NCBI RefSeq assembly: GCF_001270265.1
Contig: NZ_LGAP01000013.1
Span: 1-64,000, forward strand
Origin: Ensifer adhaerens
GTDB taxonomy: Bacteria > Pseudomonadota > Alphaproteobacteria > Rhizobiales > Rhizobiaceae
Length of the DNA: 64,000 nucleotides
Direction of reading: 5' to 3'
Positions 19,059-26,168 of the stretch are shown piece after piece (within the stretch, counting starts at the first letter, position 1; the number at the start of each line of letters is the position of its first letter). The notes beneath the pieces are model-generated. The model searched no databases and was not told where the DNA came from. It saw only the letters and a program-made list of their open reading frames with translations. The position numbers were made by a program, and so were the translations under genes.

Positions 19059-19083
19059 GGAACATTGCAAGTTTTCGCGCGTT
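19059..19083 (+). promoter_or_regulatory. EcfG/RpoE2-type stress promoter
   Basis: GGAAC at 19059, 16-base spacer, CGTT at 19080, the exact alphaproteobacterial general-stress sigma consensus. It points toward the gene starting at 19230, leaving about 140 bases of leader. Confidence 0.7.
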
Positions 19084-19229: not shown

Positions 19230-19631
19230 ATGAACCAGCATGAAGAGATTAGGGAAAAGCCGCTCATCGACCCGGTAACAGGTCAGCCGACACCGATGCC
19301 GACAGACCCGGCGCCGGTCAGCGCCAAGCGCAGCAGTTGGCCGCTCATCATCATCCTGCTTGCCGGCCTCGTGCTCGCGCTGATCGCCTGGCTTCCAGCA
19401 GAACTGACGCGTGACACGACCGAGACGGCAACGCCACCGGCCACGACCGATCAGTCGACAACGGGCCAGACGGCGACACCGCCGGCCGCGGATACGACGA
19501 CCACTCCGCCGGCCGATACGACCACCGCGCCATCAGGCGGAACGATGACCGCCCCGGAAACGACGCCACAGCAAGGCACGACACCGCCTGCAACGGATGG
19601 AACGACAACACAGCCGGCACCGGCCCAATAA
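19230..19631 (+). CDS. Single-pass membrane protein with Thr/Pro-rich tail
   Basis: 133 residues: a cytoplasmic 35-residue start, one membrane helix ('WPLIIILLAGLVLALIAWLP') and an about 80-residue low-complexity tail of Thr, Pro, Ala and Gln that would face the periplasm. No known domain; such tails are typical of cell-envelope spacer regions. ATG 19230 follows an AGAAAGGA site; a GTG three codons earlier is possible. A stress-type promoter lies upstream, so induction in the general stress response is likely. A 12-bp hairpin follows. Confidence 0.75.
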   Translation: MNQHEEIREKPLIDPVTGQPTPMPTDPAPVSAKRSSWPLIIILLAGLVLALIAWLPAELTRDTTETATPPATTDQSTTGQTATPPAADTTTTPPADTTTAPSGGTMTAPETTPQQGTTPPATDGTTTQPAPAQ

Positions 19632-22973: not shown

Positions 22974-23138
22974 TCAGGTTCTACGCATGAGTCCGGCCAC
23001 CAGAGAGATCACCAGGAAGGCGAGGAAGAGGAAGAACAGGATCTGCGCAATACCTGCGGAAGCACCGGCAATACCGCCAAAACCAAGTACACCTGCGATA
23101 ATGGCCACTACCAGAAAGACGAGAGCGTAGTAAAGCAT
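22974..23138 (-). CDS. DUF1328 (UPF0391) small membrane protein
   Basis: 54 residues, nearly all hydrophobic: '[20 protein letters not shown]', then '[20 protein letters not shown]' and a short Arg-rich end. This is the YtjA/DUF1328 family of two-helix inner-membrane proteins, function unknown, often stress-induced in alphaproteobacteria. The start is fixed by an AAGGAGATATCCT ribosome site. A perfect EcfG-type promoter lies upstream, which fits stress control. Confidence 0.92.
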
Positions 23139-23171: not shown

Positions 23172-23197
23172 AACGTCATGGTCACCTATTTTGTTCC
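23172..23197 (-). promoter_or_regulatory. EcfG/RpoE2-type promoter of the DUF1328 gene
   Basis: On the minus strand GGAAC (23197-23193), 17-base spacer, CGTT (23175-23172). Distance to the start codon is 34 bases. Confidence 0.8.
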
Positions 23198-23314: not shown

Positions 23315-23339
23315 GGAACATTCGAGATAGTCCTACGTT
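23315..23339 (+). promoter_or_regulatory. EcfG/RpoE2-type promoter of the NepR-like ORF
   Basis: GGAAC (23315-23319), 16-base spacer, CGTT (23336-23339), 30 bases before ATG 23369. Confidence 0.8.
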
Positions 23340-23368: not shown

Positions 23369-23575
23369 ATGAAGATGCCAATGTCACATATCTGGAAGTC
23401 CGCGGCTGAAACGGCGCGGCGAAACGCCGAGTTGCCGGACAGCAATCTTCATATCGGTAGGACGATGCGCGATCTCTATGCTCACAACGCAGACAAACCG
23501 AGTCAGGACCTAAACAATCTTCTCGAAGAACTGAAAAAGGCCGAGCCGAAGCCGAAGCCGAAGCCGAAGAGATAG
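23369..23575 (+). CDS. Small NepR-like protein
   Basis: 68 residues. The central segment 'LHIGRTMRDLYAHNADKPSQ' followed by 'DLNNLLEELKKAE' lines up with the NepR anti-sigma core of the RsiA2-type protein encoded nearby ('LIGSKLKALYRAIEQEPVPD' then 'LFIDLLQKLDDAE'): the IG, LY, P, D-L, LL, L and AE positions agree. The tail is a KPKPKPKR repeat encoded by a tandem GCCGAA-type hexamer. If the similarity is real it would bind the general-stress sigma factor or PhyR. The strong stress promoter directly upstream supports expression. A different helical small protein is possible. Confidence 0.6.
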   Translation: MKMPMSHIWKSAAETARRNAELPDSNLHIGRTMRDLYAHNADKPSQDLNNLLEELKKAEPKPKPKPKR

Positions 23576-23592: not shown

Positions 23593-23781
23593 TCAGCAAA
23601 GACTTAAAAAAGCAACCGCCGCGACGGTTGGTATCCGTAGCGGCGTTTGCTTTTGGCTTTTCGAGCCGATCAGGCACGCTTCTCGGTGGCGGGAAGCCCA
23701 CTCGTCGATCTGGCGCTCGGCCTCATCGCGGGCAATGCCCTTCAGCTCAGTCCACTTGCCTTGAATGATGTCCCAGTTCAT
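23593..23781 (-). pseudogene. Shortened CsbD-like stress protein
   Basis: The first 15 residues 'MNWDIIQGKWTELKG' are the CsbD N-terminus, but they run straight into 'IARDEAERQIDEWASRH', which looks like the C-terminal helix of rhizobial CsbD proteins. The central GKLTDDD region of about 30 residues is missing, in frame. After that the frame continues through a hairpin to an out-of-place stop. So it appears internally deleted and perhaps frameshifted at the end. It lies 44 bases downstream of a stress-promoter gene on the same strand and may be co-transcribed. Confidence 0.55.
23603..23655 (-). terminator. Terminator-like hairpin inside the CsbD-like tail
   Basis: On the minus strand GCAAACGCCGC pairs imperfectly with GCGGCGGTTGC and is followed by TTTTTTAAG. 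It lies before the annotated CsbD-like stop, which suggests the original gene ended upstream of it. Confidence 0.6.
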
Positions 23782-23825: not shown

Positions 23826-24155
23826 TCAGTTGCGGAATTTCGGCTTTTCGTCCGCGCGCGCAGCAACGGCGTAGGTGCCGTCGTCGGCAATCACCTTGAC
23901 TTCAAGCTGACGCGACGGCGTGATCCGCCACTCGATCATCGCGTCCTCTACGAACAGGGCCGGATCGACTTCGGCACATTTGCCGTAGGCGCTCTTGAAC
24001 GTCTTTCCGACCTCTTCGATCGACGGCGAAAGCAATTCATGACATTCCTCGACGGTCTCGAAGCCGACGACCGGTGTCGGAACCTCACGGCAGGCGGCAT
24101 CGCCCTGCATGCAGCCGACGAGGACCATGATGGCAGCGATATGTTCCATCCGCAT
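23826..24155 (-). CDS. Small secreted Cys-containing protein, unknown function
   Basis: 109 residues with a likely signal peptide ('MEHIAAIMVLVGCMQGDAAC'; cleavage near DAA-C or before CREV). The mature part has Cys residues near 22, 38 and 60 that could form a disulfide, and an amphipathic end 'LEVKVIADDGTYAVAARADE'. No family recognised. The start has AAAGGAGC immediately before ATG 24155. A perfect EcfG-type promoter lies upstream, so it belongs to the stress cluster. Confidence 0.75.
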   Translation of the reverse strand: MRMEHIAAIMVLVGCMQGDAACREVPTPVVGFETVEECHELLSPSIEEVGKTFKSAYGKCAEVDPALFVEDAMIEWRITPSRQLEVKVIADDGTYAVAARADEKPKFRN

Positions 24156-24183: not shown

Positions 24184-24209
24184 AACGGTTATGGACGGCG
24201 TGGAGTTCC
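24184..24209 (-). promoter_or_regulatory. EcfG/RpoE2-type promoter of the secreted protein gene
   Basis: Minus strand GGAAC (24209-24205), 17-base spacer, CGTT (24187-24184), 28 bases before ATG 24155. Confidence 0.8.
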
Positions 24210-24390: not shown

Positions 24391-24415
24391 GGAACAAATT
24401 GCCGTGATCGTCGTT
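24391..24415 (+). promoter_or_regulatory. EcfG/RpoE2-type promoter toward 24469/24679
   Basis: GGAAC (24391-24395), 16-base spacer, CGTT (24412-24415). It points to the small ORF at 24469 and the lipoprotein gene at 24679. Confidence 0.7.
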
Positions 24416-24678: not shown

Positions 24679-24927
24679 ATGAAGAAGATACTTATCATAG
24701 CAAGTCTGATCCTCCCCCTGGCGGCCTGCACGCAAACGGAGAAGGGTGCAGCGATCGGCGCGACCGGCGGCGCGATCATCGGCGGTGCCGCAACGGGCAA
24801 TGTCAGAGGTGCTGCAGTCGGTGCAGCGATCGGCGGTGTCGCCGGCGCGCTCATCGGCAATGCCAATGAACCGGGACGTTGCATCTATCGCGACCGCTAC
24901 GGCCGCCGCTATGAGGCCGCCTGCTAA
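24679..24927 (+). CDS. Glycine-zipper lipoprotein
   Basis: 82 residues. Signal peptide with lipobox 'LPLAAC' (Cys at residue 18), then a glycine-zipper segment ('GAAIGATGGAIIGGAATG', 'AAVGAAIGGVAGALIGNAN') of the YMGG/Gly-zipper_2 type, ending 'CIYRDRYGRRYEAAC'. Members sit in the outer or inner membrane as lipoproteins and help envelope stability. A stress-type promoter lies 264 bases upstream. Confidence 0.85.
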   Translation: MKKILIIASLILPLAACTQTEKGAAIGATGGAIIGGAATGNVRGAAVGAAIGGVAGALIGNANEPGRCIYRDRYGRRYEAAC

Positions 24928-24986: not shown

Positions 24987-25205
24987 TTACACCACGGAGC
25001 GAACTTTGTCGTCGGCGCGGCTCAGCGCCTCGGCATCGTCAAGCTTTTGCAGAAGGTCAATGAAAAGGTCAGGCACCGGCTCCTGTTCGATCGCACGATA
25101 GAGCGCCTTCAGCTTCGAACCGATCAAGCCGTTCGGATCTGAACCTCTCGCAGCCCTCGCCGTTTCCTCTTCACCGACGCCACGCTCGTCCACAGGATCT
25201 TTCAT
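24987..25205 (-). CDS. rsiA2: NepR-family anti-sigma factor (RsiA2-type)
   Basis: 72 residues. The NepR core is explicit: 'GLIGSKLKALYRAIEQEPVP' then 'DLFIDLLQKLDDAE', two helices flanked by disordered acidic ends. NepR binds and silences the EcfG sigma factor (RpoE2) and is titrated by phosphorylated PhyR. It is divergent from the PhyR gene. No sigma gene is adjacent; in S. meliloti the rpoE2-linked pair is rsiA1/rsiB1, and the unlinked pair is rsiA2/rsiB2, which is why I use this symbol. ATG 25205 was chosen because the upstream extension is not family-like. Confidence 0.88.
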   Translation of the reverse strand: MKDPVDERGVGEEETARAARGSDPNGLIGSKLKALYRAIEQEPVPDLFIDLLQKLDDAEALSRADDKVRSVV

Positions 25206-25370: not shown

Positions 25371-26168
25371 ATGTCACTTTCGACCCGTATTGCACCACAC
25401 CTTCCCTTTCTTCGCCGTTACTCCCGCGCCGTCACCGGTTCGCAGGCCGCTGGCGACGGTTATGTGGCGGCGATTCTGGAAGCGTTGATCGAAGACATCA
25501 GTCTTTTCCCGGAGAGCTCCAACGACCGGATCGCCCTCTACAAGCTGTTCTGCTCGCTGTTCGAGAAAGTCTCCATCGACCGGACCGAGAACGCCTCTCC
25601 CTTTGCCTGGGAACAGCAGGCCGCCGCCAATCTTTCGCTGATCGCGCCTGCGGCGCGGCAGGCGTTTCTGCTCGTGTCGGTCGAGGGATTCTCAATCGCC
25701 GATGCCGCCGAGATCATGGGGCAGAGCCAGGCGGCGTTTTCCAAGCTCCTGACGGTCGCTTCGGAAGACATTTCGCGTCAGGTGGCAACAGAAGTCCTGA
25801 TCATCGAGGATGAACCGCTGATTGCGCTCGATATCGAAGACATGGTGACGAGCCTCGGCCATCGTGTGACCGGCATTGCCCGCACCTATAAGGAAGCGCT
25901 GGATCTCTACCGCAAGACGGCGCCGAAGATGGTTCTGGCCGACATCCAGCTCGCCGACGGCAGCTCCGGTATCGACGCGGTCAATGAGATCCTGAAGGAT
26001 GCGACGGTGCCGGTGATCTTCATCACCGCCTTCCCCGAGCGCCTGCTGACGGGAAAACGGCCGGAGCCTGCCTTCCTCGTGACCAAGCCTTTCAACCCGG
26101 ATATGGTCAAGGCGCTGATCAGCCAGGCTTTGTTCTTCGATGAGCACGCTCGCTCGACACGAGGATAA
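25371..26168 (+). CDS. rsiB2: PhyR-type anti-anti-sigma response regulator (RsiB2-type)
   Basis: 265 residues. Residues 1-135 form the sigma-like domain ('FLRRYSRAVTGSQAAGDGYV', 'FSIADAAEIMGQSQAAFSKL'), residues 140-260 a receiver with acidic pair 'IIEDEP', phospho-acceptor Asp191 in 'VLADIQLADG', 'FITAFPE' and 'LVTKPF'. When phosphorylated, the sigma-like half binds NepR and frees RpoE2, switching on the general stress response. ATG 25371 has AAGGA eight bases upstream. It is divergent from rsiA2 and converges with the AI-2E transporter gene 20 bases away. Confidence 0.95.
   Translation: MSLSTRIAPHLPFLRRYSRAVTGSQAAGDGYVAAILEALIEDISLFPESSNDRIALYKLFCSLFEKVSIDRTENASPFAWEQQAAANLSLIAPAARQAFLLVSVEGFSIADAAEIMGQSQAAFSKLLTVASEDISRQVATEVLIIEDEPLIALDIEDMVTSLGHRVTGIARTYKEALDLYRKTAPKMVLADIQLADGSSGIDAVNEILKDATVPVIFITAFPERLLTGKRPEPAFLVTKPFNPDMVKALISQALFFDEHARSTRG

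Follow-up and report, generated by a model that had tools for sequence, protein, structure and literature searches.

How might a bacterium that has switched on its general stress response bring it down again? Over-activation of the response can be lethal, as deletion of rsiA1 in Sinorhizobium meliloti illustrates, and the negative feedbacks of the alphaproteobacterial system are little known (passages of PMC4814048). Two described systems come closest to the one that concerns us here. In Sphingomonas melonis Fr1, passages of PMC6599016 describe NepR2, a protein that is up-regulated in an EcfG-dependent manner (slightly below the authors' cut-off), that co-precipitates PhyR, that is weakened by alanine at L31 or F35, and whose deletion raises general stress response activity and whose over-expression lowers it. 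In Methylobacterium extorquens AM1, the passages of PMC4814048 on NepR homologues report putative EcfG promoters for META2p0735 and META1_2700, the binding of two NepR homologues to PhyR and not to EcfG, and, for one homologue under EcfG control, a response lowered by over-expression; negative feedback was proposed. A stress-induced NepR paralogue that acts as a brake is thus an idea already published, shown in the first of these organisms (PMC6599016) and proposed for the second (PMC4814048), as far as these passages go. Here, we describe a candidate for such a protein in Ensifer adhaerens.

The candidate lies within a stretch of 64,000 nucleotides (contig NZ_LGAP01000013.1, positions 1 to 64,000), the whole of which we call the window, at 23369-23575 on the forward strand. 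We refer to this frame as ORF68. A preliminary description of the window had given it a 68-residue product, and so it has: the frame is open, begins with ATG and translates into 68 amino acids. Could it nonetheless be that the locus makes a regulatory RNA and that the reading frame is incidental? The frame is short, and its S. meliloti orthologue is absent from the annotation of the Ak57 record, whose gene table is, however, incomplete. Selection speaks otherwise, with pooled pN/pS values of 0.19 in one Ensifer clade and 0.28 in another (16 same-genus sequences; shifted frames 1.0-1.5) and of 0.38, 0.41 and 0.14 in three further groups (shifted frames 1.15-4.0). ORF68 is a real protein-coding gene under purifying selection, and the contrast across these five groups, 0.14-0.41 in frame against 1.0-4.0 out of frame, largely refutes the RNA explanation, which we consider exceedingly unlikely.

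An exact EcfG promoter had been described about 30 bases upstream, and it is there: a predicted EcfG (RpoE2)-type site, GGAAC-N16-CGTT, at 23315-23339 on the forward strand, whose end lies 29 bases ahead of the ATG. The same arrangement recurs in all 15 other same-genus genomes, where the first base of an exact site falls 51-54 bases before the ATG, and in all 40 loci of a multi-genus set, where an exact site starts 36-59 bases before the start codon of the family member, with 30 distinct spacers among these sites. For comparison, an exact EcfG site stands within the 200 upstream bases of 123 of the 1322 other ATG frames of at least 60 amino acids at the same 40 loci, a yardstick that takes in many frames without a gene and, among the true neighbours, several stress genes. 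We conclude from the sequences that ORF68 has a conserved EcfG-type promoter, and its expression would be expected to be under RpoE2. The window holds eight EcfG-type sites (spacers of 16-18) against 1.8 +/- 1.3 expected, a number reached in none of 100 shuffles, so that the region is a stress cluster.

The order of the genes is DUF1328, ORF68, a damaged CsbD-like frame, a hypothetical protein, a glycine-zipper gene, an RsiA2-type NepR and an RsiB2-type PhyR. The DUF1328 gene (22974-23138, reverse strand; PF07043) is divergent from ORF68 and has an exact EcfG-type promoter of its own at 23172-23197 on the reverse strand; the glycine-zipper gene (24679-24927, forward strand) takes its name from a homologue so called in S. 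meliloti Ak57. Both of these, together with an FAD-oxidoreductase (which we have labelled DadA-like in this analysis), are present at 40 of 40 ORF68 loci; at L101, which belongs to a separate set of ten longer loci, the DUF1328 gene was looked for and not found. The canonical NepR, of RsiA2 type, is at 24987-25205 on the reverse strand (PF18557, E 4.3e-12). It had been placed 1.6 kb from ORF68; it is indeed nearby, at a distance of about 1.4 kb from the end of the frame. The PhyR-type response regulator, which we propose as the partner of ORF68, runs from its ATG at 25371 to 26168 on the forward strand, matches the Pfam families PhyR_sigma2, PhyR_sigma-like and Response_reg and shares 81% identity with the RsiB2 protein of S. 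meliloti Ak57. A canonical NepR stands downstream on the opposite strand at 39 of the 40 loci, and a PhyR lies within the 4-kb flank at 31 of them and at nine of ten longer loci, the tenth (L101) being one whose sequence stops about 230 bases past NepR.

Several other features of this neighbourhood deserve a record of their own. The CsbD-like stress gene (23593-23781, reverse strand) lacks 33 internal codons, lost in frame, and has a run-on C-terminus; full-length versions are found in the relatives L100, L104, L105 and L107. The hypothetical protein of 109 amino acids (23826-24155, reverse strand) is conserved in several relatives and gave no family above the cut-off in a Pfam scan; an exact EcfG-type site precedes it (24184-24209, reverse strand), and it is, by its promoter, a likely RpoE2 target. 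The glycine-zipper gene lies 288 bases downstream of the start of an EcfG-type site at 24391-24415 on the forward strand (261 in L105 and 264 in L107), and its long 5' leader is possibly regulatory. A further exact site, at 19059-19083 on the forward strand, stands upstream of a Pro/Thr-rich frame that ends at 19631 and has one hydrophobic stretch; L105 and L107 have near-identical counterparts of this site. Elsewhere in the source genome, an additional EcfG-like ECF sigma frame (L150:730-1251, forward strand, on contig C67) matches PF22029 and is distinct from the RpoE2-type one; three other PF22029 matches (L152-L154) adjoin frames that, judged by eye, resemble anti-sigma factors.

Is ORF68 also kin to the NepR encoded a few genes away? 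The preliminary description had called it a possible NepR-like protein and had looked to an HMM comparison to decide the matter, and the answer depends on how much of the family is allowed to speak. The protein by itself matched nothing in Pfam or NCBIfam, falling short of the cut-off of the curated PF18557 NepR model; it gave no BLASTP alignment to RsiA2, and there was no NepR among the matches of a single-sequence PDB search. When 16 relatives were scanned singly against Pfam, NepR was matched by four (best E 0.029) and Spore_III_AB by five (best E 0.0023); we take the Spore_III_AB result to be a chance helical match. A profile restricted to the genus (A4) aligned with NepR in hhalign (67%, E 5e-5), found no NepR in the PDB and hit a canonical NepR a single time over 31 genomes (G010, E 1.6). 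Such a profile barely reaches NepR, and the claim of homology, therefore, rests on the wider family.

These are the results that would please anyone who holds that ORF68 is a small helical protein under EcfG control with no kinship to NepR and that its likeness to NepR is the convergence of two short amphipathic helices: tests on single sequences and on the genus alone come out negative, certain members score better with a Pfam model that has nothing to do with NepR than with NepR itself, and the monomer model is poor (AlphaFold2, from 22 and then 41 sequences, gave three helices at low confidence, with pLDDT 63.9 and 67.6 and pTM 0.28 and 0.27). The wider family tells against this. Its profile (A1) aligned with that of NepR (A2) over 50 columns (hhalign 95.9%, E 5.7e-9), and searched against 177,635 PDB sequences, it put two NepR chains at the top, 5uxx_B (E 0.0098) and 4qic_B (E 0.014), which are identical over the aligned part and are apparently one protein. 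Among the matches listed, its further genome matches were PF18557 NepRs in all 31 cases cross-checked by hand. In the reverse direction, with E values stated for a nominal 1000 sequences, an HMM of NepR ranked the ORF68 frame second among 1137 frames of the window (E 0.0024), behind RsiA2 (4e-24) and ahead of the third frame (0.074). Forty members of the ORF68 family scored from 1.9e-8 to 0.26 with this HMM; the best of 1000 shuffled copies scored 0.29 and the best of 40 reversed copies 3.5, so that the controls fall below most members and the weakest members do no better than the best shuffle. There is even a direct pairwise bridge, in that canonical RsiA2 matches the member L102 by tblastn (47.5% over 40 amino acids, E 3e-5 in a search of 11 loci); canonical RsiA reached only two of the 40 members at E <= 0.01. 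With profile searches significant in both directions and choosing NepR, we hold convergence to be very unlikely and consider it highly probable, judging from the sequences, that the ORF68 family and NepR share common descent, though the kinship is a distant one. What survives of the earlier claim, then, is ancestry at the level of the family, by profile-profile comparison, by the PDB search and by the NepR HMM; the genus-only profile and the curated Pfam model do not deliver it.

What was kept from NepR and what was changed can be read in an alignment (A5) of 41 rows, made of the window protein, 37 of the 40 loci (L109, L138 and L141 were left out) and L026, L028 and L030. The NepR-like core, residues 26-59 (23444-23545, forward strand), reads N-L-H-I-G-x-T-(L/M)-R-D-L-Y ... 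L-x-x-LL-x-x-L-x-x-x-E and is where both the profile-profile alignment to NepR and the HMM match to the PDB chains fall. Its positions are nearly invariant: I29 and G30 in 40 rows each and T32, L/M33, L36, L51, L52, L55 and E59 in all 41. Helix 1 of NepR (I-G/A-x-x-L-K/R-x-L-Y) and helix 2 (F/L-x-x-LL-x-x-L) are thus both present, but the tyrosine that ends the first of them, Y37, whose counterpart matters in both NepR and NepR2, is found in only 27 of 41 rows, the window protein, with Met at position 33, included. At that position, 13 rows that we call Sinorhizobium-type (several of them bear the name Ensifer) have H, Q or E, and L026 has Met. The E-x-[V/I/L]-P linker that precedes helix 2 is missing from the family, apart from one EPLP at another spacing (L147); 42 of 42 RsiA2 rows carry it as E/Q-P/A-[V/I/L]-P. 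Between the tyrosine position and helix 2, nearly all RsiA2 rows (41 of 42) have a distance of 12, as have 17 of the 41 ORF68-family rows; in the other 24, which include the window protein, it is 10-11. The pattern that had been said to be common to ORF68 and RsiA2 was therefore right in kind, but the proline and the spacing after LY differ, the linker is shorter by one residue and BLASTP, as noted above, aligns nothing.

At the other end of the protein, something is new. The motif HIWKSA, residues 7-12 (23387-23404, forward strand), is specific to the ORF68 family, with I8 in 39 of 41 rows, W9 in 36, K10 in 39 and S or T at position 11 in every row, and this IWK[S/T] N-terminus is an addition relative to NepR. 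In the clade of the window, the protein also has a basic tail. A tree of the cores (41 ORF68-family and 42 RsiA2 rows over 38 columns, with 19 rows of A2 and RsiA1 left out) separates the two families by a branch supported at 100/100, and although L026 and L030 sit on very long branches and their placement is unsure, the ORF68 family is, as reconstructed from these columns, a clade apart from RsiA2.

How far does this clade extend? By tblastn against 201 relatives, 16 of 16 genomes of the genus, the source among them, have ORF68, as do six others in the family: G060 (E 6.9e-13), G108 (6.4e-9), G117 (7.7e-8), G018 (2.1e-5), G024 (0.013) and G106 (0.047), the last two being accepted on promoter and locus. 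At E <= 1, there were matches in 62 of the 201 genomes, of which 22 are counted as carriers, with part of the weak matches inspected singly; a closer look ruled out the candidate loci at L027, L029 and L032-L035. All 22 carriers have two PF18557 NepR matches; among the matches listed, two or more occur in 43 of the 201 genomes (a hand count). The scan that gave the 40 loci, a set that overlaps the others so that counts are not additive, found the family in Ensifer, in Sinorhizobium (S. meliloti 4H41 and S. medicae included), in Rhizobium, Pararhizobium and Ferranicluibacter and in other Rhizobiales. A profile search of 394 family genomes, taking the best 15 candidates per genome, returned full-length members in 33 genomes of seven genera (g1, g4, g10, g46, g92, g94 and g103) at E <= 1.3e-17. 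Order-wide, with the best 20 candidates per genome, two of 297 genomes matched the profile at 1e-6, the source genome and G492, and the G492 match starts only at position 14. From this distribution, ORF68 is co-inherited with the rsiA2-rsiB2 locus in a part of the Rhizobiaceae that takes in Sinorhizobium meliloti, and the family would be an old one, vertically kept and confined to that part.

What might such a protein do? The findings on S. melonis NepR2 and on the M. extorquens paralogues lead us to propose that ORF68 is an EcfG-induced antagonist of PhyR that brakes the stress response, a reading that we think somewhat better than an even bet. When EcfG/RpoE2 is active, the ORF68 protein would be made; its two NepR-type helices would dock on the sigma-like domain of phosphorylated PhyR (RsiB2, RsiB1 or both); the true anti-sigma factors, RsiA1 and RsiA2, would be displaced; and once free, they would recapture RpoE2, so that the response is damped or ended. 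In sum, stress would induce a negative feedback that acts through PhyR. That PhyR is the target, that RsiA is displaced and that the sign of the effect is negative are all things that we infer.

Might ORF68 instead be one more anti-sigma factor, which binds and inhibits RpoE2 or another EcfG-type sigma factor directly, as RsiA1 and RsiA2 do? Its NepR ancestry would suit such a role, and the source genome, which has two NepRs above the Pfam cut-off and two PhyRs, offers sigma factors to bind: an RpoE2-type frame (so named by its position and a PF22029 match) adjoins RsiA1 on another contig, and there is the further EcfG-like frame on C67, a contig that holds none of the genome's four PF18557 matches. 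Still, the NepR linker is lost, ORF68 adjoins rsiA2-rsiB2 and not a sigma gene, and the PhyR-binding paralogues of M. extorquens gave no interaction with EcfG (passages of PMC4814048). In S. melonis, the EcfG test was indirect only, both proteins being unstable together (passages of PMC6599016). We regard direct inhibition of a sigma factor as distinctly unlikely.

A NepR descendant could also have left the PhyR-sigma switch altogether, its IWK[S/T] N-terminus and altered core binding another partner (a histidine kinase of the general stress response, for example, or RNA polymerase, or the envelope), at least in those Sinorhizobium-type species that lack the key tyrosine. The strong conservation of the new N-terminal motif fits this, as does the basic tail in the window's clade, and so does the replacement of the tyrosine by H, Q or E in 13 Sinorhizobium-type rows, 12 of which give a pN/pS of 0.38, so that selection is still on; the replacement counts against simple PhyR binding there and argues for binding that is weaker or different. 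What weighs the other way is that the gene has kept its place beside rsiA2-rsiB2 and that the I-G-x-T-(L/M)-R and LL-x-x-L stretches of the core hardly vary, and a departure from the switch seems to us unlikely, if worth keeping in mind. A mixed proposal we put forward as a single speculation, tentative and rather doubtful: ORF68 would titrate PhyR in Ensifer and in Sinorhizobium-type species, where the tyrosine has given way with gene and promoter still under selection, would have acquired a different partner, coupling the general stress response to something new, so that some Rhizobiaceae with a second rsiA2-rsiB2 module would have a third layer, a stress-induced, NepR-derived family set apart by an IWK[S/T] helix at the N-terminus.

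If the PhyR-antagonist reading is true, ORF68 would give the model symbiont S. meliloti an off-switch that is concrete and easy to test, and it would show that NepR-derived regulators escape current family models. The preliminary description knew of only two such proteins in S. meliloti, a list that is incomplete on two counts: there is the ORF68 orthologue (loci L120 and L037), and passages of PMC6180224 describe an unannotated RsiA1/RsiA2-like ORF opposite SMb21687, near rpoE5, that is strikingly similar to rsiA1. Passages of PMC3616915 report 71 new ORFs in S. meliloti and five in rpoE2-dependent intergenic regions, and the ORF68 orthologue may be among the 71. A passage search of the main text of PMC10117765 turned up nothing on ORF68, and the family was not found in passages on NepR paralogues in the open-licence part of PubMed Central.

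How, then, does ORF68 compare with its described relatives? The ORF opposite SMb21687 adds, as the ORF68 orthologue does, to the NepR-like ORFs that S. meliloti carries without annotation; it lies beside rpoE5, at another locus (passages of PMC6180224). RsiA1 and RsiA2 (PF18557) share with ORF68 the I-G/A-x-x-L-K/R-x-x-Y and F-x-x-LL-x-x-L helices, and RsiA2 shares its gene cluster as well; they differ from it in having the linker and in having no IWK[S/T] motif, and RsiA2 is not RpoE2-regulated in S. meliloti (passages of PMC4814048). META2p0735 and META1_2700 of M. extorquens resemble ORF68 as NepR homologues with putative EcfG promoters, a likeness drawn from their description in those passages; a plasmid collection searched with NepR for META2p0735 gave no M. 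extorquens record among its matches. S. melonis NepR2, as the passages of PMC6599016 present it, is like ORF68 in being small, EcfG-regulated (ORF68 by its promoter sequence) and inconclusive in BLAST and in having NepR-like residues toward its C-terminus. It adjoins ecfG where ORF68 adjoins rsiA2-rsiB2, and by its published residues, it has Phe where the Ensifer protein has Tyr. In an alignment that we made from the published residue numbers, the two positions at which alanine weakens NepR2, L31 and F35, fall on M33 and Y37 of ORF68, and the spacing that follows, counted by residue numbers, is common to the two: 11 from F35 to M46 in NepR2 and 11 from Y37 to L48 in ORF68, against 12 from Y36 to M48 in NepR.
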